64,000 nt of DNA, taken from positions 62,001 through 126,000 of IMG/VR virus record IMGVR_UViG_3300025030_000003, one strand, 5' to 3'. Source of the stretch: a virus. How positions within the stretch are numbered: position 1 is the first letter of the stretch; the number at the start of each line of letters is the position of its first letter. Positions 3,666 to 17,546 of the stretch are shown one piece after another. A program made the position numbers and the translations under genes. The notes below the pieces were generated by a model, which was not told the origin of the DNA, did not search any database, and worked only from the letters and a program-made list of their open reading frames with translations.

Positions 3666-3967
3666 CCTACTAGCTCATTCATTGTTAATAAACTGTCTAT
3701 CTCTTCTTCTGTTATTTCATACATGTCATCGTTGTCTATTAAGCTATTTATAAAACATTTATAGAGGTCTTTGCTGACTGTGTTTTTTCTACCTTCTTTG
3801 TCGTATATCTCAAGACCACATCTCTTATTTCCTACACAATATCCAATACCAACCCACTCATCTTTTTTAGGATTAAAGATTATAGCCACTTTAATATCTT
3901 TAGCAGGTTCATAATAAAACTTACTATTAAACTCATCTCTTTTGGGAATATGATTAAGTTTTATCAT
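3662..3967 (-). CDS. MxEL-tail family protein
   Basis: 101 aa from the ATG at 3967 (MIKLNHIPKR), which has a good SD (GGAGAAGG); a frame opening at 3979 would overlap the upstream gene further. Ends YEITEEEIDSLLTMNELVG. Confidence 0.75.
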   Translation of the reverse strand: MIKLNHIPKRDEFNSKFYYEPAKDIKVAIIFNPKKDEWVGIGYCVGNKRCGLEIYDKEGRKNTVSKDLYKCFINSLIDNDDMYEITEEEIDSLLTMNELVG

Positions 3968-4316
3968 TGCCTTCTCCAAACAAATATCTTATTGGGATTT
4001 TAACAGCGTAGGCTATATCTTCCTGTATTTTATCTATCATACTGAGTTCGTAATAATTTCCCTCTTTAGGTTTAGCTACTAACTCTATCATTACCAAAAC
4101 CGACTCTACTTCTTCTGGAGTTAATTCAAAAACAGTTGATGGATGATGTTCTAAGAAATTTTCAAACTCATAATCCATCCATGCTGACCTATGCCATTCC
4201 CCCTCTCTCAATATATACACAGTGCTAGAAGTACGAAAATTAGCTTCTCGCCTTTTGTAGAAAACAGGATTGTTGTGGTCGTTATCTATATTTTTATAAT
4301 ATCTACATTTATCCAT
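3954..4316 (-). CDS. MxEL-tail family protein with extra C-terminal domain
   Basis: 120 aa. Residues 1-80 are a standard family member (MDKCRYYK..., ELTPEEVESVLVMIELV). About 40 residues then follow the tail, with IQEDIAYAVKIPIRYLFGEG, which resembles the end of a Cro/C1-type helix-turn-helix. It is paralogous to the next-upstream gene (4309-4695). The extension shows that the tail can be internal. Confidence 0.72.
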   Translation of the reverse strand: MDKCRYYKNIDNDHNNPVFYKRREANFRTSSTVYILREGEWHRSAWMDYEFENFLEHHPSTVFELTPEEVESVLVMIELVAKPKEGNYYELSMIDKIQEDIAYAVKIPIRYLFGEGNDKT

Positions 4317-4695
4317 TAAATTTAGTTCTTATGTTATCTATCTTATTCATTAATCTATTAATAATACTTTTAGTTTTTATAGGGTTTACTTCTAGGGGTT
4401 TCATAGGAATTATAGTTATCCTATTTAACTCTGCCATCATTTCTGATATAGTAAATCCAACTTCATCTTGGTCTACTAGCTCTCTCATAATCATAATGGA
4501 GTTAGCTTCTTCTTCAGTTATTTCTATAACTTTAGTTGAATCTTGAGATAGATATGTTTCAAATTCCGCTAAACTCCAAATAGAATCTTTCCAAATATTA
4601 TCCTTTTGACAAACTACGACTCCTCGTTTATCTACTTTATACAAAGTAGGACAAGATTCAAATTCTATATCTTTGTAATATCTACATTTATTCAT
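4309..4695 (-). CDS. MxEL-tail family protein with C-terminal extension
   Basis: 128 aa; MNKCRYYKDIE opening closely matches the 3954-4316 product, as do IEITEEEANSIMIMRELV and the W-rich middle. About 50 residues follow the tail and look helical and basic. The pair is probably a recent tandem duplication. Confidence 0.75.
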   Translation of the reverse strand: MNKCRYYKDIEFESCPTLYKVDKRGVVVCQKDNIWKDSIWSLAEFETYLSQDSTKVIEITEEEANSIMIMRELVDQDEVGFTISEMMAELNRITIIPMKPLEVNPIKTKSIINRLMNKIDNIRTKFNG

Positions 4696-4697
4696 TG

Positions 4698-4829
4698 TTA
4701 AGCATCTAGTTCTTTTCTTACTTTTTCTACCAAGGGTTTCACTAAATGATACATTCCCATTTTCTTAGCAATTGCTTCTAACTCGTCTACTAAGACTCTA
4801 ATAACTCTTTCTAATTTTTCTACGTTCAT
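4698..4829 (-). CDS. Helical microprotein, 43 aa
   Basis: ATG at 4829 lies in an ATGA junction with the upstream family gene, whose ELIG codons supply the SD. Alternating charged and hydrophobic residues (VEKLERVIRVLVDELEAIAKKMG) predict one or two amphipathic helices. Not recognised. Confidence 0.65.
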   Translation of the reverse strand: MNVEKLERVIRVLVDELEAIAKKMGMYHLVKPLVEKVRKELDA

Positions 4830-5086
4830 CCTATTAACTCCATCATACTTTGTTGTACCATACATTCTTCTTCCGTTATAAGTTCTGAAGTATAACTAGA
4901 ATGATAATGTTTGTTATACCCAGTTTCTGCTATCAACTCTGATAAATTGTACCATTCAAAACTTATAGCCCACTGCTTACCAGTCCATATATGAAATATA
5001 CTTTTATGGATAGTAGGGGTATATTGTATTAACTTAACTTTATTTATTTTATAGTCTAACATGGTAACTTTAAAATATTGACTCAT
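4826..5086 (-). CDS. MxEL-tail family protein
   Basis: 86 aa, opening MSQYFKV, with ELITEEECMVQQSMMELIG at the end. Trp and Tyr are frequent in residues 30-65. Confidence 0.78.
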   Translation of the reverse strand: MSQYFKVTMLDYKINKVKLIQYTPTIHKSIFHIWTGKQWAISFEWYNLSELIAETGYNKHYHSSYTSELITEEECMVQQSMMELIG

Positions 5087-5087
5087 A

Positions 5088-5288
5088 TTATCCTTCAGTA
5101 ATAAAATCCAAGGCTACTCTAAATACCGTTCCTATGACTATCCCAAAGATTAAATTAGGACAATGAGATGGAGTGAATACACAAATTAAAAATATTATAC
5201 CTAAAGCTATCGCATACCAAGTATAGATAGCATATTTAGTATTAAAGACTGGAATGGGTTTAGCCAAAAACTCTTTTATTTTATTCAT
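5088..5288 (-). CDS. Small membrane protein, 66 aa
   Basis: Two predicted transmembrane helices (YAIYTWYAIALGIIFLICVF and NLIFGIVIGTVFRVAL) joined by a short TPSHCP turn. Holin-sized, but nothing specific supports lysis. Confidence 0.7.
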   Translation of the reverse strand: MNKIKEFLAKPIPVFNTKYAIYTWYAIALGIIFLICVFTPSHCPNLIFGIVIGTVFRVALDFITEG

Positions 5289-5383
5289 TACATTTTACCT
5301 ATTAAATTAATTACAAACAACATGGCTAATATTATTAACATCATACCAAGCATTTGTAATGGTACTAAGATTAATGCTTCCAC
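5288..5383 (-). CDS. Single-span membrane microprotein, 31 aa
   Basis: GTG start at 5383 with SD GGAGAAAG formed by the end of the upstream gene. The product is almost all hydrophobic (LQMLGMMLIILAMLFVIN). TAATG junction with the next gene. Confidence 0.6.
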   Translation of the reverse strand: MEALILVPLQMLGMMLIILAMLFVINLIGKM

Positions 5384-5590
5384 TTATTCTTTCTCCAATT
5401 CTTTTGTTATATTCTCAAAGAGTTCAGAATCTTCTATATTGAATACATTTCTTTTAGGGTCAAGATTAGAAATAATTTGTCCGACTCTAAGATAGGGATG
5501 CTTACGTTTATACTGTCTCAACTTATTAAACAACTCATCTATCTTTTCTTCGTCAAACCTAAAGTTGTAATCTTCTTGGTGTTTCTTCAT
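5384..5590 (-). CDS. Conserved-looking phage protein, 68 aa
   Basis: Contains KHPYLRVGQIISNLDPKRNVFNIEDSELF, a pattern (R-x-GQI-x-N ... F-x-IED-x-EL) I have seen in small phage proteins of unknown function. Ends in an acidic-basic helix whose codons hold the SD of the next gene. Confidence 0.7.
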   Translation of the reverse strand: MKKHQEDYNFRFDEEKIDELFNKLRQYKRKHPYLRVGQIISNLDPKRNVFNIEDSELFENITKELEKE

Positions 5591-5907
5591 TCTTCACAAG
5601 CTCCGTTTTCCCAGTCAGCTAATATTAACTTGCTTCCAACTTTATTTTTGACACACGTATTTGTATGAGATTCCGTGTGAACATCCTTATCTGTCGCTAT
5701 AACACAGTAATTTCCGTCTAAGAAAGAATGACCATACGTTATAGACTTAACTGTTTCTGGGTAAGTTGCTTCTTTTAACATTAGACATTCTTTAGGCATG
5801 TGTTCTATTCCATAACCTATTAACACAAATATTGATAGAAAAAATACTAATCCTAATATTACACTAGCTCCATTATTATCATTTCCAATATTTCTTTTTA
5901 TTCCCAT
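5587..5907 (-). CDS. Single-span membrane protein, 106 aa
   Basis: Transmembrane helix at residues 15-33 (VILGLVFFLSIFVLIGYGI), then a domain of about 70 residues with four Cys, likely periplasmic with disulfides. SD AAGGAGA and a promoter at 5928-5956 precede it. Not recognised. Confidence 0.72.
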   Translation of the reverse strand: MGIKRNIGNDNNGASVILGLVFFLSIFVLIGYGIEHMPKECLMLKEATYPETVKSITYGHSFLDGNYCVIATDKDVHTESHTNTCVKNKVGSKLILADWENGACEE

Positions 5908-5927
5908 GATATTTCTCCTTTATAATA

Positions 5928-5956
5928 ATCATAGCATATCTTTAACAATAAGTAAA
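5928..5956 (-). promoter_or_regulatory. Sigma70-type promoter
   Basis: -35 TTTACT (5951-5956), spacer 17, -10 TATGAT (5928-5933) with TGC just upstream of the -10. Directs transcription of the gene starting at 5907. Confidence 0.65.
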
Positions 5957-5969
5957 GTATTTATTAAGA

Positions 5970-6260
5970 TTAATTTACAAGTTCTTCCATACTACGGAGA
6001 GTAATCATTTCATCATCTGTTAATTCAAATACTTTAAAGTCATTCCAGTACCAATAAAAAGTACTCATAGTTTTACTTTTTTCATAATCATGAGGTTTAT
6101 CTAAAGTATCGTTATTATTACAATAGTATCTGAATTCTATACCCGTTATATAAATATCTTTATTAAATCCTCGTTTATGTTGTAATAGATAAAGTTTATT
6201 ATCAAGAAAAGAATATTTATTATTCTTTTCTTTACTATCGTCAGGAAATATTCTTATCAT
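5970..6260 (-). CDS. MxEL-tail family protein
   Basis: 96 aa. The opening MIRIF is atypical but the end FELTDDEMITLRSMEELVN is standard. Last gene of the run before a promoter; the tail persists although no gene is overlapped downstream. Confidence 0.75.
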   Translation of the reverse strand: MIRIFPDDSKEKNNKYSFLDNKLYLLQHKRGFNKDIYITGIEFRYYCNNNDTLDKPHDYEKSKTMSTFYWYWNDFKVFELTDDEMITLRSMEELVN

Positions 6261-6487
6261 GATACCAATTCTCCCATAGCTAAATAAGCTAGATATTCTT
6301 CTTCGGAAGCTTCTCTGTACTGCCTAGAATAATATTTTAATAATTCCTCTAAAGTATAACTATGACTTTTATGTAAGTTACCTATCCCATCAATGTAATA
6401 AAGTCTTCCTTCTTTCTCAACGTAGAATTCAAAATATCTAGCACCCACTTTATGTGTGAAGTCTTCTCTTATCATAGCATATCTCAT
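6257..6487 (-). CDS. MxEL-tail family protein
   Basis: 76 aa; ARYFEFYVEKEGRLYYIDG in the first half, EASEEEYLAYLAMGELVS at the end. ATGA junctions at both ends. Confidence 0.78.
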   Translation of the reverse strand: MRYAMIREDFTHKVGARYFEFYVEKEGRLYYIDGIGNLHKSHSYTLEELLKYYSRQYREASEEEYLAYLAMGELVS

Positions 6488-6816
6488 GATATTAATTCTT
6501 TCATCATTAGTAAAGAACGTAATTCTTCTTCTGGATTATCCGTTTCTGGTTCATAAAGGACTCCTTCATATTTTTGACATTCGTGTGGATGATTACTGTC
6601 ATGAAGATAGCACTCCCAATTGTCTTCATTTATAAATTTGAAAGTTCCTGTCTGATGCCAAATACCATTATAGTCTCTCTTAGACTCTATTTGATAAGAA
6701 ACTAATTTGAGTCTTTTTATTAAGATGGCTTTTTCAAACTCTTCATACAAAAGATAATATGTTTTATTATAATCAAAGCTCCAAGCCTTTCTTAATAAGT
6801 CATCTATCTTTTTCAT
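6484..6816 (-). CDS. MxEL-tail family protein
   Basis: 110 aa, with NKTYYLLYEEFEKAIL near the start and EELRSLLMMKELIS at the end. Central segment carries two His-Cys pairs (CYLHDSNHPHEC). Confidence 0.78.
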   Translation of the reverse strand: MKKIDDLLRKAWSFDYNKTYYLLYEEFEKAILIKRLKLVSYQIESKRDYNGIWHQTGTFKFINEDNWECYLHDSNHPHECQKYEGVLYEPETDNPEEELRSLLMMKELIS

Positions 6817-7046
6817 TTTGTAAGTTCTTTCATATATCTTCCTAAGTCTACTTTAGCATTTATCTCTTCAGAAGTCAATCCTCTATCAATAAGTTCTTTT
6901 TCTATAATCTCATAGTAACATTCTAAATCATAGTACTCTCTATTCATATAAGAACTCATACCAGATAACTCATTATCTATCCAAACTAAATCAGATAATA
7001 AACTATCACTTGTCTGTTCTTCTATGTCTTGTAACATATTAGGCAC
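6813..7046 (-). CDS. MxEL-tail family protein (divergent)
   Basis: 77 aa, acidic and helical, without the aromatic N-terminal signature; keeps LTSEEINAKVDLGRYMKELTK. Overlaps the upstream gene by 8 bp. Confidence 0.7.
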   Translation of the reverse strand: MPNMLQDIEEQTSDSLLSDLVWIDNELSGMSSYMNREYYDLECYYEIIEKELIDRGLTSEEINAKVDLGRYMKELTK

Positions 7047-7584
7047 CTATAAGTTCTTCCATAGATTCAAGACTTCTTAAAGCATCTTCAAACTTACAAT
7101 AGATTCTGGGTAGGGTCTTTACAAGATTGAAAACTTCTTTACCTGCTAAATATGGATTTCTAAAAGCATAGTTCCAATAGTTAAAACTTGGATTAGGAAA
7201 TGGAAGACCTACATAATATTCTATATTATTTTTATCGTCAAATCTCATTAAATAATTATTGCCTTTTATGTTAGCTAAAATATACTCTTCTCCGAGACCT
7301 AATTTTCTAGCAATATCATGTTCACATTCTACCCTATAGTATATATTCCAAATGTTATCAATGCCAGATAACCATTCATCTAATTCTTTAGAAGTCTTGT
7401 TAGGTTTATAAATATTATCCATAGTACTGTCCCTATCGATAGAAGTATCAGAGACATTACCCTCTTTATCATATAAATAATGAGATGCAATAGCAGAGAA
7501 CTCAAGACCCTCTTCCTTTTTAATTAGGTCATAGTACTCTTTGTCTACTGTATATGTTTTATATAATATATGAGAACTATACAT
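7039..7584 (-). CDS. MxEL-tail family protein, long (181 aa)
   Basis: The longest member. Begins MYSSHILYKTYTVDKEYYD and ends ALRSLESMEELIGA. SD-like GGAGATT lies ahead in the preceding microprotein gene. Probably a two-domain version of the family. Confidence 0.72.
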   Translation of the reverse strand: MYSSHILYKTYTVDKEYYDLIKKEEGLEFSAIASHYLYDKEGNVSDTSIDRDSTMDNIYKPNKTSKELDEWLSGIDNIWNIYYRVECEHDIARKLGLGEEYILANIKGNNYLMRFDDKNNIEYYVGLPFPNPSFNYWNYAFRNPYLAGKEVFNLVKTLPRIYCKFEDALRSLESMEELIGA

Positions 7585-7592
7585 TAATTTAC

Positions 7593-7673
7593 TTAATCTC
7601 CAAAATCATGTATGTCCGACCAATGTATAGTAGCTTCGATGGGTTCCTCATATTCTTCTTCGTTATTAATCAT
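7593..7673 (-). CDS. Acidic microprotein, 26 aa
   Basis: MINNEEEYEEPIEATIHW... ending IHDFGD. Good SD (AAGGAGATAAGCT before ATG), formed just after the stop of the upstream gene. May act only as a coupling leader for the 181-aa gene. Confidence 0.5.
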   Translation of the reverse strand: MINNEEEYEEPIEATIHWSDIHDFGD

Positions 7674-7684
7674 AGCTTATCTCC

Positions 7685-7933
7685 TTAGCGTACTAACTCT
7701 GTCATGGTTATTATTTTAGTACAGTCTCCTTCTGTTATTTCTTGTACCTGATTTACTTTTACCAATCTTTTTATTTTATCTGATATCCTATCATAAGGAA
7801 CCGACTCTGCAAGAACTGTCCAATTATTTCTTTTATAATCATACATATAGGTATAGTCATCTTCATCTACTTTATATAAGTAGTATCCAAATTCTAAATG
7901 GAAACTATTTCTTGGTTCTTTATAATATCTCAT
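7685..7933 (-). CDS. MxEL-tail family protein, probably from a leaderless mRNA
   Basis: 82 aa, MRYYKEPRN opening, EITEGDCTKIITMTELVR end. No SD precedes the ATG; instead the -10 box of a promoter (7940-7945) is only 6 nt upstream, so the transcript should begin at or within a few nucleotides of the AUG. First gene of the left-hand cluster. Confidence 0.78.
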   Translation of the reverse strand: MRYYKEPRNSFHLEFGYYLYKVDEDDYTYMYDYKRNNWTVLAESVPYDRISDKIKRLVKVNQVQEITEGDCTKIITMTELVR

Positions 7934-7939
7934 AATTTT

Positions 7940-7968
7940 AGTATAACAAAAATAGAGAAGGCAGTCAA
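7940..7968 (-). promoter_or_regulatory. Promoter embedded in the tRNA-operon terminator
   Basis: -35 TTGACT (7963-7968) lies in the loop of the terminator hairpin, the T-run forms part of the 17-nt spacer, and -10 TATACT is at 7940-7945. Drives the left-hand MxEL cluster. Confidence 0.72.
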
Positions 7969-7980
7969 TACCTTCTCTTT
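7946..7980 (-). terminator. Rho-independent terminator of the tRNA operon
   Basis: Stem AGAGAAGG (7954-7961 with 7971-7978), 9-nt loop, then TATTTTTG on the minus strand. Downstream of the last tRNA; overlaps the next promoter. Confidence 0.75.
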
Positions 7981-8012
7981 AATAATTAATATAATGTTAC
8001 AAACTTTGGAGG

Positions 8013-8052
8013 AAGCACAATAAGCTAATTTTAGTAAAACACAATAAGCTAA
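8013..8052. repeat. Two direct copies of a 14-bp sequence
   Basis: CACAATAAGCTAAT occurs near 8016 and again near 8040, between the last tRNA and the terminator. May be a trace of duplication of tRNA spacer; no function evident. Confidence 0.55.
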
Positions 8053-8059
8053 TAAAAAA

Positions 8060-8133
8060 TGGAGCGGGTAGGGAGAATCGAACTCCCTTCATCAGCTTGG
8101 AAGGCTGAGGCACAACCTATATACCATACCCGC
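8060..8133 (-). tRNA. tRNA-Gly(TCC)
   Basis: Cloverleaf with 7-bp acceptor GCGGGTA/TACCCGC, anticodon loop CTTCCAA, T-arm GGAG-TTCGATT-CTCC, encoded CCA. Last of the array. Confidence 0.93.
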
Positions 8134-8140
8134 TTAATAA

Positions 8141-8223
8141 TACAGGTGAGAGGATTTGAACCTCCACGCTTTTTAAGGCACGAGTGTCTAAAACTCGCAT
8201 GTCTACCATTCCAACACACCTGC
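8141..8223 (-). tRNA. tRNA-Leu(TAG)
   Basis: Type II tRNA with long variable arm; anticodon stem CGAGT/ACTCG with loop TTTAGAC; acceptor GCAGGTG/CACCTGT has a G-U end pair. CCA is not encoded. Confidence 0.92.
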
Positions 8224-8235
8224 ATAGTATATAAA

Positions 8236-8309
8236 TGGCTGAGGAGATAGGAATCGAACCCATATTCACTGAGTCAAAGTCAGGTGTCCTGCCGTTAGAC
8301 GACTCCTCA
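8236..8309 (-). tRNA. tRNA-Gln(TTG)
   Basis: Acceptor TGAGGAG/CTCCTCA, anticodon loop CTTTGAC in stem CCTGA/TCAGT, discriminator G, encoded CCA. Confidence 0.92.
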
Positions 8310-8320
8310 ATAATTAAAAA

Positions 8321-8395
8321 TGGCTCCCTCGGCAGGACTCGAACCTACAGTCATTCGATTAACAGTCGAACGCTCTACCATTGAGCTACGAGGGA
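8321..8395 (-). tRNA. tRNA-Asn(GTT)
   Basis: Acceptor TCCCTCG/CGAGGGA, anticodon loop CTGTTAA in stem TTCGA/TCGAA, discriminator G, encoded CCA. Confidence 0.93.
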
Positions 8396-8401
8396 ATAAA
8401 A

Positions 8402-8473
8402 AGCCCTTTGTCAGATTTGAACTGACAACCTTCATCTTACAAGGATGTTGCTCTACCATTGAGCTAAAAGGGC
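8402..8473 (-). tRNA. tRNA-Thr(TGT)
   Basis: Acceptor GCCCTTT/AAGGGC, anticodon loop CTTGTAA in stem ACATC/GATGA, T-loop TTCAAAT; CCA not encoded. Confidence 0.9.
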
Positions 8474-8476
8474 AAG

Positions 8477-8551
8477 TGGGTGGAAGGACGGGACTCGAAC
8501 CCGCTTTGCTTCGTTCACAGCGAAGGATATTACCCATATATGACCGACCAC
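8477..8551 (-). tRNA. tRNA-His(GTG), imperfect acceptor stem
   Basis: Anticodon loop CTGTGAA in stem CTTCG/CGAAG; extra 5' G opposite C73 as expected for histidine tRNA; CCA encoded. Two acceptor positions (U4-U69 and C5-U68) do not pair, which is unusual. Confidence 0.85.
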
Positions 8552-8552
8552 A

Positions 8553-8626
8553 TGGCGGAACTATGGGGATTTGAACCCCAGACTTCTCGCAGACAACGAG
8601 TAGTTTTACCCCTAAACTATAGTTCC
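8553..8626 (-). tRNA. tRNA-Asp(GTC)
   Basis: Acceptor GGAACTA/TAGTTCC, anticodon loop TTGTCTG closed by CTCG/CGAG, discriminator G, encoded CCA. Confidence 0.9.
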
Positions 8627-8633
8627 AAATATA

Positions 8634-8706
8634 TAGATACTGAGAGACTCGAACTCCCGACTTCCTCCGTGTAAGAGAGGCACTCTACCGACTGAGTTAA
8701 GTATCC
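8634..8706 (-). tRNA. tRNA-Val(TAC)
   Basis: Acceptor GGATACT/AGTATCT, anticodon loop CTTACAC in stem CCTCT/GGAGG, discriminator A, no encoded CCA. Ends one base from the next tRNA's CCA. Confidence 0.92.
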
Positions 8707-8707
8707 A

Positions 8708-8783
8708 TGGTCTAGGTGGAGGGACTTGAACCCCCGACTCCCTACGTCCAAGGTAGGATTTCTACCAACTGAATTACACCTAG
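8708..8783 (-). tRNA. tRNA-Pro(TGG)
   Basis: Starts with C like bacterial proline tRNAs; acceptor CTAGGTG/CACCTAG, anticodon loop CTTGGAC in stem CCTAC/GTAGG, encoded CCA. Confidence 0.92.
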
Positions 8784-8794
8784 ATTATAATTAA

Positions 8795-8868
8795 TGGTGT
8801 TTCCTAGAAGAGTCGAACTTCTGTCTAACGCTTATGAGGCGACCGCTCTGCCGTTGAGCTAAGGAAAC
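8795..8868 (-). tRNA. tRNA with CAT anticodon (elongator Met or Ile2)
   Basis: Acceptor GTTTCCT/AGGAAAC is fully paired at 1-72, unlike an initiator; anticodon loop CTCATAA. Could be tRNA-Met or, if C34 is lysidinylated by the host, tRNA-Ile. Encoded CCA. Confidence 0.88.
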
Positions 8869-8869
8869 A

Positions 8870-8947
8870 TGGTAGCAGGAGTTGGATTTGAACCAACGAC
8901 CCCCAGCTTATGAGACTGGTGAGCTAACCAGACTGCTCTATCCTGCG
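8870..8947 (-). tRNA. tRNA-fMet-like initiator (CAT)
   Basis: Acceptor CGCAGGA/TCCTGCT has the C1-U72 mismatch that marks initiators, and a D-arm close to bacterial initiator tRNA (GAGC...GGTTAGCTC). The anticodon stem CCAGT/GCTGG lacks the three G-C pairs of canonical initiators. Encoded CCA. Confidence 0.85.
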
Positions 8948-8953
8948 ATAATA

Positions 8954-9027
8954 AGTACCTGATTGGATTTGAACCAACGACTACAGAGGTTGCAACTCTG
9001 CCCCTTAGACCACTTGGGTACAGGTAC
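8954..9027 (-). tRNA. tRNA-Cys(GCA)
   Basis: Acceptor GTACCTG/CAGGTAC, anticodon loop TTGCAAC in stem CAGAG/CTCTG, discriminator U as for cysteine; CCA not encoded. Confidence 0.9.
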
Positions 9028-9028
9028 A

Positions 9029-9103
9029 TGGTGGGAGTAGTAGGTACCGAGCCTACCTCTGGTGCTTTTCAGGCACCCGCTAATCCATCTCAGCTATTCT
9101 CCC
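9029..9103 (-). tRNA. tRNA-Phe(GAA), unusual T-loop
   Basis: Anticodon loop CTGAAAA in stem GGTGC/GCACC, acceptor GGGAGAA/TACTCCC with one mismatch, encoded CCA. The T-loop reads CTCGGTA instead of TTCRANY, so position 54 is C. Confidence 0.88.
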
Positions 9104-9104
9104 A

Positions 9105-9190
9105 TGGTGCGTTGGGAAGGACTCGAACCTCCAAGTGATTATTAGTCGGGTGGGTTACAGCCACCTGCCATACCGTTAGGCGACCAACGC
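9105..9190 (-). tRNA. tRNA-Tyr(GTA)
   Basis: Type II with long variable arm, acceptor GCGTTGG/CCAACGC, anticodon loop CTGTAAC in stem GGTGG/CCACC, encoded CCA. Confidence 0.93.
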
Positions 9191-9195
9191 ATATT

Positions 9196-9265
9196 TGGAG
9201 ACAGTGGGAATTGAACCCGCTACAACGTCTTTGCAAAAGAAGTCCGCTACCTCAGCGTTATCCCC
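9196..9265 (-). tRNA. tRNA-Ala(TGC)
   Basis: Short (70 nt). Acceptor GGGGATA/TGTCTCC contains the G3-U70 wobble that specifies alanine. The loop TTTGCAA gives anticodon TGC with stem CTTCT/AGACG (one mismatch); parsing it as cysteine GCA breaks the stem. CCA not encoded. Confidence 0.8.
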
Positions 9266-9269
9266 ATGA

Positions 9270-9540
9270 CGGGAGGAGTTACCCTCCCCGACTTCTAGGC
9301 TACGAGAGCCATTTTACGTCCGAAATCTAAAGACACTGTGTTGTTTCCGTTTGTTGTTTTTGCTATTTTTAAAGAGAATGCCCTCTTACTTGCGAGTTTA
9401 TCCCTACCTACCACGTCTAATCCACGCACCCCCATGGTGGAGGTGAAGGGAGTCGAACCCTTGTCCGCAACAGACATCAATAAACCTTCTACAAGTTTAG
9501 TCCAATTTGAAGAGTAGGACTTCTCACTAAATTTTCAAGG
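9270..9540 (-). ncRNA. ssrA: Circularly permuted transfer-messenger RNA (tmRNA)
   Basis: Trans-translation RNA. The acceptor half comes first: a pseudoknot (TTGAA/TTCAA at 9520-9538 interleaved with AGTCC/GGACT), then a P2-like strand GTTGCGGAC, T-arm AAGGG-TTCGACT-CCCTT and CACCTCC-A-CCA ending at 9435. After one U (9434) the coding half begins at 9433 with GGGGGTG, which pairs with CACCTCC including the G3-U70 alanine determinant, then GGATTAGACG. The tag frame is 9295-9363: resume codon GCA, 22 residues beginning AKTTNG and ending MALVA, stop TAG. A GC hairpin at 9268-9290 closes the coding half. Normal tmRNAs have the opposite order, so this gene is permuted. Confidence 0.85.
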
Positions 9541-9545
9541 TACAA

Positions 9546-9716
9546 TTACTTTGTTTTGTATTGAGTTCTTCTGTATTTTTTCCAGCTTCTTCTTACGGTG
9601 TGCCTTGCGTTCTCTACTTGATGCCAAGGACAGAAGGAGCAGGAAGCGAATTTTCTTTTATAGTATTTTTTATAAACACTATTATTAGTAGTTGTTTTAA
9701 AGTCTTCGCTTTTCAT
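9546..9716 (-). CDS. Basic CxxC microprotein, 56 aa
   Basis: ATG at 9716 with SD AGGAGA 8 nt upstream. Begins MKSEDFKTTTNN, then KKYYKRKFASCSFCPWH, then a very basic end (VRRSWKKYRRTQYKTK). The CSFCPWHQVEN block followed by SWKxxRxxQ resembles small phage proteins often found near tRNA genes. Likely RNA- or ribosome-associated by charge; that is inference. It lies just ahead of the tmRNA acceptor half in the same transcript. Confidence 0.7.
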   Translation of the reverse strand: MKSEDFKTTTNNSVYKKYYKRKFASCSFCPWHQVENARHTVRRSWKKYRRTQYKTK

Positions 9717-9747
9717 TTCTTGTATCTCCTGAGTTATTATCCTCAGA

Positions 9748-9774
9748 GATTATTTAATTCTTTTTTCATGATTG
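9748..9774 (-). CDS. Possible 8-residue leader peptide
   Basis: ATG AAA AAA GAA TTA AAT AAT CTC TGA with AGGAAA 5 nt upstream, ending ahead of the SD of the 56-aa gene. Could be a coupling leader; equally likely chance. Confidence 0.25.
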
Positions 9775-9790
9775 TTTCCTCATATTTAAT

Positions 9791-9825
9791 AACAAAAAAG
9801 AGAGGTTCTTTTTTTGAGAACCTCT
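9791..9825 (-). terminator. Strong rho-independent terminator
   Basis: Perfect 9-bp stem AGAGGTTCT (9801-9809 with 9817-9825), 7-nt loop, then CTTTTTTGTT on the minus strand. It ends the transcript from the promoter at 10175-10203; the tmRNA-tRNA operon beyond it has no obvious promoter, so partial read-through is likely. Confidence 0.82.
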
Positions 9826-10168
9826 TGAAGAAATCTTTTCTTTTGTATCGTTGGAGATTAGTCATCTCCTCCGTAAGAGGTTTTTGTTCTCATGCCTGTG
9901 CAATCCACGCTATGTCCTTCAAAATTAATTGACGGATTCGCTATGGTATAATTTTGTTGTAGCATGAGTTCCATTTTATTTTCTTTCTGACCCGTTAAGG
10001 GTATCATCTTTTCTAATTTGAGTCCTAAGTATTTGTTACTCGGTATGAACTTAGGGATAACCGAAGATAGTTTTTAGTTGCGTAGCTATCATAACAACAA
10101 ATATTTGATTTTCTAATTATAATATAAAGTAGTGTTAAAAAAACTATTATATTTTTTCTTTACTCTAT
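9797..10168 (-). ncRNA. Candidate structured transcript (about 370 nt) ahead of the tmRNA and tRNAs
   Basis: Bounded by a perfect promoter and a strong terminator. Contains an H-type pseudoknot (TCGGT/ACCGA at 10060-10064 with 10040-10044; CCTAAGT/ACTTAGG at 10049-10055 with 10024-10030), a TCATGC/GCATGA pairing around AATCC/GGATT, and hairpin GGAGAT/ATCTCC. A short reading frame also runs through it. It may be a stable RNA, a riboregulatory leader or both. It does not fit RNase P, 6S or group I intron landmarks I know. Confidence 0.5.
9858..10007 (-). CDS. Possible small protein, 49 aa
   Basis: Frame from ATG at 10007 (MIPLTGQKENKMELM...) to TAA, ending RTKTSYGGDD; an internal ATG at 9974 would give 38 aa. 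No good SD precedes either start, and the same DNA can fold, so coding status is uncertain. Confidence 0.35.
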   Translation of the reverse strand: MIPLTGQKENKMELMLQQNYTIANPSINFEGHSVDCTGMRTKTSYGGDD

Positions 10169-10174
10169 ATAACC

Positions 10175-10203
10175 ATTATATCATGAGATGAATTCTTTGT
10201 CAA
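10175..10203 (-). promoter_or_regulatory. Perfect-consensus extended -10 promoter
   Basis: TTGACA (10198-10203), 17-nt spacer, TATAAT (10175-10180) preceded by TGA. Expected start near 10168. One of the strongest sigma70 promoters in the window; serves the short transcript and, by read-through, the tmRNA and tRNA operon. Confidence 0.85.
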
Positions 10204-10217
10204 GTATTTAATTTAAA

Positions 10218-11258
10218 TTAATCGGTAAATCCTTTTTCCTTTAATTTTTTAATATAAGAAGTGTCCAAGTATTGAATATCTATATTATCTCTTGTGGCTC
10301 CTAACCTTCTAACATTTTGATTTAAAAAATTAAGTAAAAATTCAGTATCATCTAAGTCTCTCGTTGTTTCTGATAAACCTGCGACTTCCCATAATTTTGT
10401 ATAAGAGGAGATAATAATTTGATAATTCCATTTTCTTGGAGTCAACGCTTTCATAGCGACTTCATGAAATAAATCACCTCTGAATAGATAAACATTTCCT
10501 TTATCATCCACGAGTCCTCGAACTTCATCAAATTGTTTGAACATTTTATTTAATTCATTTGGGGAAGGATTAACAAAAATATCGGCTTCTCCGTTACCTC
10601 CCCTAGCTGTTGTTACATAGTCTTCATGAGTATCATTAATATTTAATATGACTTTAGGAGTAATAACTACAGCTTCCCAGTCAACTCCAGAACGCTTATA
10701 TAAATCTTTTAGATTGGAGATTGAAACACGTTTCTCTATATACGTTAAAGAAGGATGGTACTCTTCATTATACTTTACCCAACCATCAAGAGGTACTACT
10801 ACACCATCTTTTAATTTAAAGAATTTTTGGAAATCCCATTCATATTTCCAATCTGCTATATCTTTAATCAGATATTTTAATCTTTCATTACTTCTTTTTA
10901 TGGAAGCATCTCTATTTAAACTATTACTACTATGGTCAAAAAATACTACTTTAGTATCACTTTCTACCAGACCTGCTGTTAATCCTTCAGTATTTAAATC
11001 TTCTATCTTATTAATCATATCATCGTGAAGAGCTAATCCCCCAACCCACATATATAAGTCATCATTACCATCTATAAAATATCTAAGTCTAAATTTTTTA
11101 TCATATTTGTGTCTACTATTATCATTATAACCTATTTTTACTAATGCCCTAAAATCACTGGAGGTAGGATTTTTAAACACTTCCACTTCTTTAGAGTAGT
11201 TACTTTTAACTACTCCATAAAATTCTTCTGTTATCTTTTTAATTTTCTTTAAACTCAT
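10218..11258 (-). CDS. Two-copy NPS-domain phage protein, 346 aa
   Basis: N-terminus MSLKKIKKITEEFYG matches the upstream paralogue. Two repeats follow: residues about 26-85 (VFKNPTSSDFRALVK...LYMWVGGLALHDDM) and about 225-275 (IFVNPSPNELNKMFKQ...VYLFRGDLFHEVAM). The pattern NPS-x2-EL-x-K-L/F ... VR ... LYVW ... H is found in many phage proteins, some virion-associated, but its function is unknown to me. The region between the copies is unlike either. Confidence 0.72.
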   Translation of the reverse strand: MSLKKIKKITEEFYGVVKSNYSKEVEVFKNPTSSDFRALVKIGYNDNSRHKYDKKFRLRYFIDGNDDLYMWVGGLALHDDMINKIEDLNTEGLTAGLVESDTKVVFFDHSSNSLNRDASIKRSNERLKYLIKDIADWKYEWDFQKFFKLKDGVVVPLDGWVKYNEEYHPSLTYIEKRVSISNLKDLYKRSGVDWEAVVITPKVILNINDTHEDYVTTARGGNGEADIFVNPSPNELNKMFKQFDEVRGLVDDKGNVYLFRGDLFHEVAMKALTPRKWNYQIIISSYTKLWEVAGLSETTRDLDDTEFLLNFLNQNVRRLGATRDNIDIQYLDTSYIKKLKEKGFTD

Positions 11259-11711
11259 TTATCCAATCACCCATTCAACTTGTTCTGGAGAATATCCAAA
11301 CCTAGACACATCAGGGTCTGATAAGAAATCGTTAGTAAGTTCTTTTACATCTTCCTCATCTTCAAATTCTTCTTCGTCCCTGTATCCAAGTATGTTCATG
11401 TAAAGTTCTATCTTATCAGGAAACATTTTCCCTTGAAAGGTATCAGCTTCCATTCTTTTATAGTCTTCATCATCCATAACACTTCCGTGTAAGATTCTAC
11501 CATCCCAAACATACAGAGCATCACCTATGGTAAATCTCACGTATCCAAATTCTTTAAAAAGTTTATATAGTTCTTGTTTAGAGGGATTTCTAAAGATATC
11601 TACATTAGTGTCTCCTTTAAGACCACTAACCATAGCAGTCATAGAGTTTCCTTTCACTAAAATAGATTTATAATACTCTTCTGTTATCTTTTTAATCTTC
11701 TTAAGACTCAT
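11259..11711 (-). CDS. Single-copy NPS-domain phage protein
   Basis: About 150 aa from ATG at 11711 (MSLKKIKKITEEYYKS), chosen because it aligns with the start of the neighbouring paralogue; a TTG at 11726 gives five more residues. One NPS repeat: DIFRNPSKQELYKLFKEFGYVRF...ALYVWDGRILHGSVM. Abuts the next gene, so the pair arose by tandem duplication. Confidence 0.72.
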   Translation of the reverse strand: MSLKKIKKITEEYYKSILVKGNSMTAMVSGLKGDTNVDIFRNPSKQELYKLFKEFGYVRFTIGDALYVWDGRILHGSVMDDEDYKRMEADTFQGKMFPDKIELYMNILGYRDEEEFEDEEDVKELTNDFLSDPDVSRFGYSPEQVEWVIG

Positions 11712-11753
11712 TAAATATATTTCCAATAGTAATCTATTTAAAATATAAAACTT

Positions 11754-11939
11754 TTACCAATTTATCATATACCCTTCGTAAGACCCTCCCATACAAGAAA
11801 AGTCATGTTTACTTTCTCTTACCACGGAATATTTCTTTTCAAGAGAAGGAAGTATCTCTGCTATGTTGAATACTAAAGTTCCCTTACATCCTAATGCTTT
11901 AGCTTGTCTAATCTTCTCTCTCACTTCACCTAGATTCAT
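11754..11939 (-). CDS. Hypothetical protein, 61 aa
   Basis: Starts MNLGEVREKIRQAKALG, a likely helix, followed by a short beta-rich end. Four bp from the upstream stop. Not recognised. Confidence 0.65.
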   Translation of the reverse strand: MNLGEVREKIRQAKALGCKGTLVFNIAEILPSLEKKYSVVRESKHDFSCMGGSYEGYMINW

Positions 11940-11943
11940 GAAG

Positions 11944-12159
11944 TTATACCTCTTCTACTTTCTTTATTTCCCAAGATAAAGTTTCCTCTGATTCTAATTC
12001 AAAATCTCCCTTATCTATTTGAATCGGCAATTCGTCATTAGCTACACAACCAGTTAATAATTGTGTTATTACATGTTGAGCTTCGTCAGAATTATCTACT
12101 CCAGTTACTATATAAGTATACCTGCTAACTTCTTCAGTTATTATTTTAAATTTTCCCAT
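11944..12159 (-). CDS. DpnD/PcfM-like small protein, 71 aa
   Basis: MGKFKIITEEVSRYTYIVTGVDNSDEAQHVI resembles the beta-alpha-beta DpnD/PcfM-like family (KFKVEIEE...V.A.s.eEA). Ends SWEIKKVEEV. Family function unclear. Confidence 0.6.
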   Translation of the reverse strand: MGKFKIITEEVSRYTYIVTGVDNSDEAQHVITQLLTGCVANDELPIQIDKGDFELESEETLSWEIKKVEEV

Positions 12160-12162
12160 TAC

Positions 12163-12597
12163 CTATCCCTCCTTGTACTTCTCATTTAAATCTTTAAATA
12201 GTTCTTCTCCATCTAATAAATCTTTTTCAAGATGAAGTTCATCCTCGGCTTCGTTTAGTTTATTAAATAAATCTTCTATGCTTTCACATCTTGTAAGATT
12301 GATTCCATTCTCAGCTTCAAACATAGCTTCGAGGGTTTCTGCATTAGGAATATGAGAACTATACTCAAGTGTCTTATATCCATCTGGGCTTTCCCCATCA
12401 GTTTCTATATAATAGTTTTCTATATCTTTTGCATCCACTACTATTTCAGAGACGTAATAAAAATCATAATCTCCATACTCATCTGTTTGAGAATACATCT
12501 CACATAGTCTATCCGCATGTTCTTTGCTACTAAATGCTTCTACTGGATAATCTCCATCCATGCCTAGATTGTGCATTACAACGTATACTGTATCCAT
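12163..12597 (-). CDS. Acidic protein with DUF7336-like start, 144 aa
   Basis: TVYVVMHNLGMDGDYPVEAFSSKEHADRLCEMY matches the general layout of small proteins in which a strand is followed by F/YSS-x-E-x-A. The remainder is strongly acidic and helical. Function unknown. Confidence 0.65.
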   Translation of the reverse strand: MDTVYVVMHNLGMDGDYPVEAFSSKEHADRLCEMYSQTDEYGDYDFYYVSEIVVDAKDIENYYIETDGESPDGYKTLEYSSHIPNAETLEAMFEAENGINLTRCESIEDLFNKLNEAEDELHLEKDLLDGEELFKDLNEKYKEG

Positions 12598-12941
12598 TAT
12601 TCCTCCAGTAATTTTATTCTACTGGGAGATATGTCGACAAGAGAGGCTAACTGCCAATGCTCTAAAGCACTTAGGCTTAATCCTTTTATATCCACCTCAA
12701 AAAGAATATCTCCCAGCCAATCCTTTTTATTTGTACTTAGATATACATATTTCCCATCTCTACCATATTCAATTTTTAATCCGTGTTTTAATATGCTTTC
12801 TAAATTTTTAGAGTCAGTACGATGATAAGCTTTCTCTCTTGATAAGTTAAAAGCACAAATCTCACAGGATGTTAAATTCCTATCTTCTTTCTTGTACTTG
12901 CAAGTGTGGGGTTGTTGTTCTTCATAACATAAGATATTCAT
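12597..12941 (-). CDS. Small ADP-ribosyltransferase-fold-like protein
   Basis: 114 aa. A Cys-rich N-terminus (C5, C14, C26, C29) is followed by AYHRTDSKNLESILKHGLKI...YVYLSTNKKDW, the H-x-T ... NL-x2-IL-x2-GL ... Y-L-S arrangement of DarT/KptA/ART-type folds. The usual catalytic Glu would lie near EVDIKGLS. Could modify a nucleic acid or protein with ADP-ribose, or be inactive; similarity is motif-level only. Confidence 0.5.
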   Translation of the reverse strand: MNILCYEEQQPHTCKYKKEDRNLTSCEICAFNLSREKAYHRTDSKNLESILKHGLKIEYGRDGKYVYLSTNKKDWLGDILFEVDIKGLSLSALEHWQLASLVDISPSRIKLLEE

Positions 12942-13009
12942 TACTTACTCGCATACCCTACAGCAAATATTAATAATGCTATACCAGCAAACATCCAAAA
13001 TACTTCCAC
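12941..13009 (-). CDS. Membrane microprotein, 22 aa
   Basis: GTG start at 13009 with SD AAGGAGAAATAG; MEVFWMFAGIALLIFAVGY is one transmembrane helix. TAATG junction with the next gene. First of three adjoining membrane microproteins. Confidence 0.6.
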   Translation of the reverse strand: MEVFWMFAGIALLIFAVGYASK

Positions 13010-13156
13010 CTATTTCTCCTTATTGTTCTTACTCTCTTTCAAATATTTAATTATTTCTTTAATATAATACACTGTCAAATGAGTAGCTAACAGGAGCATT
13101 ATTAAGGCTAAGGAACCCACCATGACTATTAAAATAATATTTAATATTATTTCCAT
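13010..13156 (-). CDS. Membrane microprotein, 48 aa
   Basis: ATG at 13156, SD AAGGAG. One transmembrane helix (IILIVMVGSLALIMLLLATHL) then a basic cytoplasmic tail ending NNKEK. Its last codons carry the SD for the next gene. Confidence 0.65.
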   Translation of the reverse strand: MEIILNIILIVMVGSLALIMLLLATHLTVYYIKEIIKYLKESKNNKEK

Positions 13157-13260
13157 TACTTCTCCTTGTGATTTATTGTTATAGTCATTCCGCCATGAAT
13201 TAAAAATCCAAATGCTAAAACTATTAAGGCTAATCCTGCAAAGGTTCCGAATAAATACAT
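13156..13260 (-). CDS. Membrane microprotein, 34 aa
   Basis: ATG at 13260; hydrophobic FGTFAGLALIVLAFGFLI then a polar end. The C-terminal HKEK codons (AAGGAG) are the SD for the gene at 13156, the same trick as in its neighbour. Confidence 0.65.
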   Translation of the reverse strand: MYLFGTFAGLALIVLAFGFLIHGGMTITINHKEK

Positions 13261-13574
13261 TATGTTTCTACCTCCTGTATATAGAATGCTAAAGTTCTGT
13301 CAGGATGTTTCTCTTCAGAATACTTCTGCATGCAACTAGAACATTCTATGGCTTTCTCTTTGGTATTGAATTCATCCAACTGAATATCTTCTCCGTCTTC
13401 TCGTATCATTCTGACACGATATCTCTTATTAGATGGTTCGATTCCAGATAACTCGGGAAGATTTTCTGCTATCATTCTTTCAGCATCTTCTCTTAATTCG
13501 GGAGGAAGATATTCCTTCAACTCATTTAATTTTGTAAATATATGTATTCTGTAAGCATCGTCTTTAGATTCCAT
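13260..13574 (-). CDS. Hypothetical protein, 104 aa
   Basis: Helical N-terminus (FTKLNELKEYLPPELREDAERMIAENLPEL) and a beta-rich second half (YRVRMIREDGEDIQL). Not recognised. Confidence 0.7.
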   Translation of the reverse strand: MESKDDAYRIHIFTKLNELKEYLPPELREDAERMIAENLPELSGIEPSNKRYRVRMIREDGEDIQLDEFNTKEKAIECSSCMQKYSEEKHPDRTLAFYIQEVET

Positions 13575-13583
13575 GATTATTCC

Positions 13584-14036
13584 TTATACTTCTATACAAT
13601 GTTGTTTAAATACTTTTAAATCAAATAGAAAATTTTTACTATTACTGTTAGCATCTCCACCAACTACTATGGTTTTAAATAATTTATTAACTATCATATT
13701 CTTAAGTTCTTTTGTAGGAATAAGATAGAGGCTTGCCTTATCTTCCGATTCGTGTATCTTGAAGCAGTACATGTCAGCCTCTGAAGTTTGAATGCCTGAA
13801 GCCTTACCTCTGCATTCATACTCTACTCCTACGTTTCCTGTTCTTGCACAGGTAAAATCTTGTTTAACTTCTACCTTTAGGTATGTTCCTTTCTTGGTAT
13901 AGAATAAGATATCATATTTATTATCGTGATTGTACCTTACAAAATCGCATCCATACTTTTCGCATATAGCACATGCAACTTCATATTCACATTGTTCCGC
14001 TAATTCTTTATCCTTTGTGTAGTTGTAGTGATTCAT
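13584..14036 (-). CDS. PD-(D/E)XK-like nuclease
   Basis: 150 aa. KYDILFYTKKGTYLKVEVKQD (residues about 43-63) gives the D-x(n)-E-x-K core of restriction-like nucleases; VEYECRGKASGIQTSEADMY resembles the segment following the core in small phage members, where the chain inspects its substrate type. Could act in recombination or host-DNA cutting. A promoter lies just upstream and SD AGGAGA precedes the ATG. Confidence 0.68.
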   Translation of the reverse strand: MNHYNYTKDKELAEQCEYEVACAICEKYGCDFVRYNHDNKYDILFYTKKGTYLKVEVKQDFTCARTGNVGVEYECRGKASGIQTSEADMYCFKIHESEDKASLYLIPTKELKNMIVNKLFKTIVVGGDANSNSKNFLFDLKVFKQHCIEV

Positions 14037-14067
14037 TTACTGTCTCCTACTTTATTTATATATAATT

Positions 14068-14096
14068 ATAATAGCATAAATTAAAATAGAATGCAA
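14068..14096 (-). promoter_or_regulatory. Sigma70-type promoter for the nuclease gene
   Basis: TTGCAT (14091-14096), 17-nt spacer, TATTAT (14068-14073) with an upstream TGC. About 30 nt of leader before the ATG at 14036. Confidence 0.72.
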
Positions 14097-14113
14097 GTAT
14101 ATGTTAAGTTATA

Positions 14114-14377
14114 TTAATTTTCTACGACAAATCTAACTTTACATCCAGTACAGATTGTCATATCTGTAAGAATAGTTAAAGGCTCATAATAATAAGTCTC
14201 TTTTCCACATTTGGGACAACGACTTAGTTTTTTTAAATTTTTCGGAATAAATTTAGTAATCTTTAATTTTCTTAATAAATTAATGAAAAATATTTTCAAT
14301 CTATGCTTTTTATAATAAGCTAGATAAAACATGTTTAGGTCTAACAAATATTTTCCAAAGGCATCTCTAAAATTCAA
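14114..14377 (-). CDS. Zinc-ribbon protein, 87 aa
   Basis: Basic helical first half (KKHRLKIFFINLLRKLKITKFIPK), then CPKCGKETYYYE...TICTGCKVRF, a four-Cys zinc ribbon at residues 54-82. Probably nucleic-acid or protein binding. No assigned role. Confidence 0.7.
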   Translation of the reverse strand: MNFRDAFGKYLLDLNMFYLAYYKKHRLKIFFINLLRKLKITKFIPKNLKKLSRCPKCGKETYYYEPLTILTDMTICTGCKVRFVVEN

Positions 14378-14387
14378 TTCAATCTCC

Positions 14388-15131
14388 TTATATTAAACTA
14401 AGTCCATAGTTTATCATAGTTATCTTTGCATTAACATAGGCTAAAGCATATTGTTGATTAGCTACAGCATATCCTCCGTTAGTTTGAATAGAGGTTACAT
14501 AAGCATTCCAAGCTTGAGAAGTAGCAGAAGAATTATAAACCTCTACGGCATAATTAAAAGTATAATTATCTGGAGCATATCCTCCTAGTATAATATCTGA
14601 CTCTGAATCACAACACATGTTAGCTAGGTTATGGGAACACATAGCAGCGTGAATAGAGGTATTAGCATTAGCAGAATCAACTATACTATTATAAACATTA
14701 ACAGCATCTTCTTGCATATTAACCACAGTATGAACATTAGTATCCTCACTATTCACAGCCTTAGCTACAGAAGCAGCCATACTAGCACCTTCTGAAGCAG
14801 TAGAAGCTCTCGAAGAATTTTCCACAGTTTGATTACTGAGATAAGCTACAGCAGAGGCTAAAGCTTCAGAGGGTCTTCCATCATTAGGGTAATTTATGAT
14901 AAAACCATTTATACATTGCTGTGTTGCATAAATTCCATACTGTATCTTTTTAGTGCGGTCTAATAATCTTAGTACTACAAAGTTAGCCCAATCATAATGT
15001 TCCTCCGTTACTAATTCATTTATTAATACGGTAGAATCTATTTGGACTTGTACTCCGAAGTAAGATACAGCCCAAGTATATAAATCATTGGGAGCTTTTT
15101 CTTCCCTAAGCCATTGTAATGTTATTTGCAT
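14388..15131 (-). CDS. Imm5-like helical-repeat protein, 247 aa
   Basis: LQWLREEKAPNDLYTWAVSYFG at the N-terminus, then ATQQCINGFIINYPNDGRPSEAL, similar to the Imm5-type putative immunity proteins (P-x-D-x-RP-x-EAI followed by Ala-rich helices). Ala-, Asn- and Ser-rich afterwards. In phages such proteins often sit near fibre genes. Could be an immunity-type or structural protein; undecided. Confidence 0.55.
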   Translation of the reverse strand: MQITLQWLREEKAPNDLYTWAVSYFGVQVQIDSTVLINELVTEEHYDWANFVVLRLLDRTKKIQYGIYATQQCINGFIINYPNDGRPSEALASAVAYLSNQTVENSSRASTASEGASMAASVAKAVNSEDTNVHTVVNMQEDAVNVYNSIVDSANANTSIHAAMCSHNLANMCCDSESDIILGGYAPDNYTFNYAVEVYNSSATSQAWNAYVTSIQTNGGYAVANQQYALAYVNAKITMINYGLSLI

Positions 15132-15141
15132 TTAGTCTCCT

Positions 15142-15420
15142 TTACTTATATTTATCATATTTAAATGTTAAATTTGATTTCGGCTCGTCATCGATTATTT
15201 CAGTAAGTTCCCTCATCATGAGAGCTTTAGTTTCCCACTCTTTAAATTGTTCCTCGGTCATTATTTCGTAGTCTTGATGCTCAAGATAAAATTCTATGAA
15301 ATAAGATTCTTCATTACATCCCGCTAAATCACTACCTGCAAAGCAAGAGAGTACCTCTCCGTCTTCGTATTTCATAAGATAATGTCCACTATCAGGACTT
15401 GTTAAATATACTTTATTCAT
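15142..15420 (-). CDS. MxEL-tail family protein with extension
   Basis: 92 aa; YEIMTEEQFKEWETKALMMRELT is followed by about 20 polar residues. Ends the middle cluster in transcription order. The upstream junction overlaps by 4 bp. Confidence 0.72.
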   Translation of the reverse strand: MNKVYLTSPDSGHYLMKYEDGEVLSCFAGSDLAGCNEESYFIEFYLEHQDYEIMTEEQFKEWETKALMMRELTEIIDDEPKSNLTFKYDKYK

Positions 15421-15770
15421 GAAACTAATTCCTGCATCATCTTGTATTTATTTAAAATCTCGAAAGCTTCTTTCTGATAATTTAATTCGTATATATCCCA
15501 AGCACCTTTACAATCTCGATATCCTAAAATGGAATCTTCATATTCAGAAGCATATCTGTGTTTATCATGAGGGTATTCTTTGTCCACAGAAAAGTCTTCT
15601 GATATCTCCCATTCTAACCAAGGATAGTCTCTAAAGAAAGAATCTTTAGTTCTATTAGGAGCATGTAAGTATCCCATAATAAATTCTCTCCCTCTATCTC
15701 CTTCATTGAATTCAAGAGCGAGATAAACTTTCTTAGGATTTATATTCGTTTTTGGAGTAAATTTATTCAA
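15417..15770 (-). CDS. MxEL-tail family protein
   Basis: 117 aa, ending ILNKYKMMQELVS. The middle carries acidic and aromatic blocks (FFRDYPWLEWEISEDF). Confidence 0.76.
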   Translation of the reverse strand: MNKFTPKTNINPKKVYLALEFNEGDRGREFIMGYLHAPNRTKDSFFRDYPWLEWEISEDFSVDKEYPHDKHRYASEYEDSILGYRDCKGAWDIYELNYQKEAFEILNKYKMMQELVS

Positions 15771-15994
15771 CCTACCAACTCTCTTAAGTATCTTATTCTT
15801 TCTACCTCTTCTTTATTTTCTAATAGAGTTACACTATTTACATTAAAGAATTCATTATGGTAATCAGAATCATAAAAGTTATGAACTATTTTATAACCAC
15901 TTCTTATAAATTCTTGTCCCCTTCTATTAGTATATAGATATTTACAATGACGGCTTCTTTTCATAATCTGGTCGATACTTGTAATCTTAATCAT
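15767..15994 (-). CDS. MxEL-tail family protein
   Basis: 75 aa, basic N-terminal half (KRSRHCKYLYTNRRGQEF), end NKEEVERIRYLRELVG. ATGA junction downstream. Confidence 0.76.
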   Translation of the reverse strand: MIKITSIDQIMKRSRHCKYLYTNRRGQEFIRSGYKIVHNFYDSDYHNEFFNVNSVTLLENKEEVERIRYLRELVG

Positions 15995-16291
15995 CTAATC
16001 CACCAGTTCCATCATCATTAAAACTCTGGTCATCTCTTCTTTTTCTTCAGGAGAACATTCCCACACATTAGTTATGTATCTGTTATTTATGTGCATTTTA
16101 AGATTAGCTTCGTCCCTTCCTCCTCGACGAGAATGCTCAGAAGGATTCTCAGATACATAAGTAAATTTCCAAATATCAAACAGGGACTTCTCAGCTTTCT
16201 CAAATGTATAATAGCCGATAACTCCATCATCCTCTTTAGAGAAATAAAGCTTATTGTAATCAAATTTATTTATATAATCTATCTTTCTCAT
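15995..16291 (-). CDS. MxEL-tail family protein
   Basis: 98 aa; NKLYFSKEDDGVIGYYTF opening region, ECSPEEKEEMTRVLMMMELVD end. Stop and next ATG abut without overlap. Confidence 0.76.
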   Translation of the reverse strand: MRKIDYINKFDYNKLYFSKEDDGVIGYYTFEKAEKSLFDIWKFTYVSENPSEHSRRGGRDEANLKMHINNRYITNVWECSPEEKEEMTRVLMMMELVD

Positions 16292-16295
16292 TTAA

Positions 16296-16499
16296 TTACT
16301 TTAATTCTTCCAATTCCTTTTTGTACTTTGATTTAATTATAAAAGCAGTTATGGCATAGTAAATAATTGATACTATAGCAAGTGAGATTGTAATCTCACA
16401 CACTGGGAAAGGACTTGCTATAAGAAAAAAAGAAATCCCTATAAGAGTAAATGCCAAGATACAAGATAGTCCACAAGAGTATAATAAAAATTTAAACAT
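16296..16499 (-). CDS. Two-span membrane protein, 67 aa
   Basis: Transmembrane helices at residues 4-28 and 35-56, then a basic end (KSKYKKELEELK). Overlaps the upstream gene by 8 bp; embedded in an MxEL cluster. Confidence 0.7.
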   Translation of the reverse strand: MFKFLLYSCGLSCILAFTLIGISFFLIASPFPVCEITISLAIVSIIYYAITAFIIKSKYKKELEELK

Positions 16500-17472: not shown

Positions 17473-17546
17473 TCAATCAGCTCCTTCATTATCAGCTCTT
17501 TTTCAAATTCTTCTTTTGTTAAGATATCTAAACTAAAATATGTTAT
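17469..17546 (-). pseudogene. Remnant of an MxEL-tail gene
   Basis: 25 codons: TYFSLDILTKEEF followed by a complete tail (ELIMKELIE). At the place where other members have TCATGA the sequence is TCATAA, so the ATG is ATA. The N-terminal YF and C-terminal tail are joined with the middle missing: an internal deletion plus start loss. Confidence 0.65.

Follow-up and report, generated by a model that had tools for sequence, protein, structure and literature searches.

The tmRNA–tRNA operon and its surroundings

The window that we analysed, a stretch of 64,000 nucleotides (positions 62001-126000 of a 190,151-base IMG/VR virus record), carries on its minus strand a permuted tmRNA gene (9295-9527) and an array of 15 tRNA genes (8060-9266), both preceded on the same strand by a structured leader RNA (9797-10168), just as the initial annotation had placed them. 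The tmRNA gene was recognized by the Rfam model tmRNA_permuted (RF04321) with 98 bits and encodes a tag that ends in GNNTVSLDFGRKMALVA. The leader measures ~370 nt from its early promoter and ~310 nt from a second, probably late one, and closes with an intrinsic terminator. Consensus scans of the minus strand from this terminator to the end of the array found no promoter-like site matching at 9 or more of 12 positions and no copy of the phage promoter motif described below, so the tmRNA and tRNAs would most simply be made by read-through.

Several smaller features accompany the operon. The tmRNA region (9204-9527) represents a permuted, two-piece tmRNA in a phage with Gram-positive-looking promoters; between this phage and its relative (see below) the tmRNA acceptor stem shows compensatory changes, and the A-run ahead of the tag is one base longer in one phage than in the other. 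A 56-codon frame with a good Shine–Dalgarno (SD) sequence, containing CSFCPWHQ, lies between the terminator and the tmRNA (9546-9716, minus strand) and is absent in the relative. The terminator that follows the tRNA array (7940-7978, minus strand) is conserved in the relative, and its hairpin contains the −35 box (TTGACT) belonging to the promoter that comes next.

The phage is large and little known: its DNA polymerase has relatives among 50,697 GenBank phages that are only ~25% identical. At the DNA level the leader region had no match in these phages at a threshold of 1e-5, and with lax settings the matches listed included just short AT-rich or promoter-like similarity, as to Lactococcus phage PMBT69. 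Scans of a viral collection revealed a sole relative, IMGVR_UViG_3300025154_000049, and the same single genome was reached by every probe, namely a 25-mer from the pseudoknot, 18-mers from the central domain and from the tmRNA, and six back-translated stretches of an open 49-codon frame that crosses the leader. Matches of 16-17 bases beyond the relative proved to be chance when their alignments were checked, and a scan of a genome collection, which included the 49-aa frame, found no relative. We found no Rfam family matching the leader, and a search of one literature library returned no account of attenuated phage tRNA operons.

Promoters and conservation of the leader

The early promoter (10175-10203, minus strand) is a sigma70-type TTGACA-17-TG.TATAAT sequence with an extended −10 element that matches the consensus at 12 of 12 positions and is retained in the relative, which bears out the perfect TTGACA-17 promoter that had been claimed here. 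Perfect TTGACA-N16-18-TATAAT sites number 18 in the 190-kb record, 16 of them on the minus (coding) strand, and 12 in the relative; the reversed control pattern matched once in the 190-kb record. Given this excess over the control and the strand preference, we regard the promoter as a member of a real set. When we checked seven other early promoters in the window, six were followed by an SD-led gene within ~50-120 nt, which makes a long untranslated leader exceptional; the seventh (26385) seems to be situated within a coding region.

Inside the transcript we detected a second promoter-like element, a copy without mismatches (TTTATATTATAATTAGA, 10112-10128, minus strand) of a 17-base motif, TTTATATTATAWNTAGR, that is also perfect at the equivalent place in the relative (G001:125509-125525). 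Allowing up to two mismatches, the minus strand holds ~25 copies of this single-element motif, most of which closely precede a gene start, and the other strand has few; sites besides the one in the leader include L053-L072. The motif probably represents a phage-specific promoter class, which looks late judging from its positions, and the polymerase that reads it is probably phage-encoded or modified by the phage. RNA common to both transcripts would start near 10105. The initial annotation had also described further hairpins in the transcript, of which others were recovered, but the AU-rich one at the 5' end holds the perfect motif copy and is therefore probably in part promoter DNA. Two weak extra copies of the element in the relative's genome likewise turned out to be the phage promoter motif.

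The element is placed and oriented in the relative as it is here, ahead of a permuted tmRNA and a tRNA array, and the distance from the terminator to the tmRNA there is no more than tens of bases. The core of the leader differs at 3 of 252 positions, against 21 of 170 in the flanks (8/84 on the promoter side and 13/86 on the terminator side; p = 1e-6, with boundaries set post hoc). Nearby, the tRNA block at 7600-9104 is almost identical to that of the relative while the sequence to either side of it is diverged, suggesting that it was probably shared recently by exchange or mosaicism; the relative lacks a tRNA-Tyr. Mosaic exchange could account for part of the conservation of the leader as well, and with a neighbouring block probably shared so recently, conservation taken by itself counts for less than it seems to. 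The conserved core is, however, bordered on each side by diverged sequence.

Fold of the leader and its alternative 3' pairings

The complete transcript is predicted to fold more stably than its shuffles (z = -3.3), with the extra stability in the 3' half (z of -2.8 and -3.8), whereas the 5' half alone, with pseudoknots ignored, is not unusual (z about +0.5). That 5' half contains the H-type pseudoknot with 5-bp and 7-bp stems that had been noticed at the outset, and we found it at 10024-10064 (minus strand), formed by UCGGU (10064-10060) with ACCGA (10044-10040) and CCUAAGU (10055-10049) with ACUUAGG (10030-10024), with loops of 4, 4 and 9. It is rare by chance, as one of 400 dinucleotide shuffles and one of 566 equal-length pieces of the window (the latter possibly the pseudoknot itself) held an equally good one, and its sequence is identical in the relative, the only other sequence known. 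The predicted fold continues with a small hairpin, ACCC-UUAAC-GGGU (9990-10002, minus strand), in which a C-to-U substitution in the relative turns a C-G pair into a U-G pair, and with a central domain (9889-9968, minus strand) closed by CUCAUGC (9968-9962) and GCAUGAG (9895-9889) at a pair probability of 0.7-0.99 and invariant in the relative. Two further pseudoknots were considered and rejected: a tandem second one (GUUG/CAAC plus GAUAG/CUAUC) is at chance level, equalled by 219 of 566 window pieces, and a third (GCUA/UAGC plus CAAAAUUA/UAAUUUUG) loses one pair by substitution in the relative.

The terminator (9801-9825, minus strand) has the 9-bp stem that had been reported, a 7-nt loop and a U tract; the stem is the same in the relative and the loop differs. 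Upstream of it we found a strand, AACCUCUU (9875-9882, minus strand), that is complementary over 8 bp to the 5' arm of the terminator (9826-9819) and may act as an antiterminator. The match was noticed after looking, with a chance expectation of ~1%: one as good over 100 nt occurred in 10 of 2000 shuffles and 13 of 1278 window pieces (~0.5-1%). In the relative the corresponding pairing, AGAACCUCU/AGAGGUUCU, is 9 bp, one pair having been lost at one end and two gained at the other, and comparison of the two phages revealed no compensatory pair change in the helix. In folding predictions, which leave out pseudoknots and kinetics, the antiterminator has a pair probability of mostly 0.9-1.0 before the 3' arm of the terminator is transcribed, and once the transcript is complete the pairs of the terminator reach 0.94-0.99, the outermost one less; both hold in both phages, and in each the two computed pairings are mutually exclusive.

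The antiterminator pairing, AACCUCUU/AAGAGGUU, closes a predicted three-way junction, whose first hairpin, GGAGAU-GACUA-AUCUCC (9853-9869, minus strand), is kept in the relative with an A-U pair replaced by U-G (both sides changed) and a U-A pair by U-G. The second hairpin is preserved although its length differs by 3 bases. The substitutions in the first hairpin are consistent with the fold but fall short of proof, coming from two sequences only.

Proposed attenuation of the operon and alternative explanations

We suggest that the element is probably the 5' leader of the tmRNA–tRNA operon acting as a transcription attenuator, most likely one that switches the translation-support genes of the phage on or off. 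Under this model, an early host-type promoter and the internal phage-specific, probably late promoter would both feed the leader, and the nascent RNA would first fold its structured 5' part, comprising the pseudoknot, the small hairpin and the central domain. The three-way junction would then form and sequester the 5' arm of the terminator, allowing RNA polymerase to continue into the tmRNA and tRNAs. Unless the junction holds, the terminator hairpin, as the more stable structure, would win, and transcription would stop with the release of a ~310-370-nt RNA. We infer that switching would take place in vivo and that read-through supplies the array, and the conserved 5' part may sense a ligand, a protein or the state of the ribosome, its pseudoknot being the natural candidate for the sensor. 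The terminator could instead merely leak, or be passed by RNA polymerase arriving from upstream genes.

Between the natures first offered for this transcript, the riboswitch-like leader fits better, because the terminator and antiterminator are exclusive and no promoter was found before the array; the other, a novel stable RNA, is less likely but plausible, because any transcript stopped by the terminator would itself be a discrete RNA. A bolder version, which we put forward only tentatively, is a new riboswitch-like class of RNA by which the phage senses the translation state of its host (through a metabolite, uncharged tRNAs or stalled ribosomes) and gates transcription of its tmRNA and tRNAs; the leader has no Rfam match and its core hardly varies between the two sequences known.

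The leader RNA is new, its kind, the attenuator leader, is known, and its place is unusual. It resembles the attenuating leaders and riboswitches of Gram-positive type in being long, structured and untranslated, in a predicted antiterminator that competes for the terminator's 5' arm, and in the proposed control of its operon by read-through, but it matches no known aptamer and its targets would be a tmRNA and tRNAs, not genes for proteins. T-box leaders also combine a terminator/antiterminator switch with a tie to tRNA biology, and the Rfam T-box model had no match to the leader; T-boxes regulate amino-acid genes and those for synthetases and are not known to control arrays of tRNA genes. The permuted tmRNA (RF04321) is the gene directly downstream, and the leader itself lies outside it: we rejected the idea that the leader is a piece of the tmRNA, as it has its own terminator and tmRNA models scored at chance level only (alpha_tmRNA, E = 0.6). 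The leader bears on the question of when and why phages turn on tRNAs and a tmRNA of their own: if the conditional terminator is real, expression of this tmRNA–tRNA operon answers to a signal through a concrete, testable element, and the leader joins the few structured phage RNAs that lie close to tRNA arrays as one not described before.

A doubtful but serious alternative is that the element encodes a free-standing, structured non-coding RNA acting in trans, for which the terminator is the normal end and behind which the array is expressed by leaky read-through. Two promoters, a strong terminator and a conserved pseudoknotted core would all suit such an RNA, and there is precedent in GOLLD and ROOL, phage-encoded structured RNAs with pseudoknots that are often found near tRNA islands (PMC12286853) and whose function in trans is presumed. 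The leader is likewise phage-encoded, pseudoknotted and near tRNA genes, but it is shorter than both (over 800 nt for many members of GOLLD, with ROOL larger too; PMC12286853), has no match to the GOLLD or ROOL models of Rfam, and has an attenuator-like end. A free-standing RNA would not need a terminator–antiterminator alternative, yet both phages have one, and this explanation also has to contend with an array for which no promoter was found.

The remaining alternatives concern the 49-codon frame (9858-10007, minus strand), which is open, as the initial annotation had it, and has no SD sequence at any in-frame ATG; we judge that it codes for nothing, or for no more than a leader peptide. Codon conservation had been proposed as the sign of a coding frame, and the count of 1 synonymous to 5 non-synonymous changes (small numbers) speaks against coding. 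The changes are spread evenly over the three codon positions (2, 2 and 2; again small numbers), whereas most changes in the neighbouring genes with enough of them to judge fall at third positions. Attenuation mediated by ribosomes, with the frame as a leader peptide sensing, for example, the stalled ribosomes that tmRNA and extra tRNAs would relieve, is thus improbable in our estimation, and the conservation of nucleotides also reaches upstream of the frame. In its favour, the frame ends within the junction hairpin at 9853-9869 and in the relative a stop lies no more than one codon away from this position although five of the nine bases there have changed, which leaves room for a leader-peptide role. 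A gene for a small protein is very hard to credit, since the 49-aa frame, although open in both phages with a 47-residue match at 94% identity, shows neither synonymous bias nor SD, has no match in Pfam or PHROGs and no homologue found beyond the relative, while an overlapping 40-aa frame with a good SD at 9865 lacks a start in the relative.

Other proteins in the window also drew our attention. A 114-aa protein (12597-12941, minus strand) shows weak, sub-threshold similarity to the KptA/Tpt1 2'-phosphotransferase and PARP families (E of ~0.02-0.03) and is perhaps an ADP-ribosyltransferase-like enzyme. Neighbouring proteins (10218-11711, minus strand; L004) differ in sequence but share identical first 12 residues, MSLKKIKKITEE, encoded by near-identical DNA, as if a start cassette had been exchanged; the remainder of these proteins differs between the phages. 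Many short tandem open reading frames at 3954-19000 (minus strand) end in a similar motif (M.EL followed by V, I or T), and their products apparently form an expanded family of small phage proteins.
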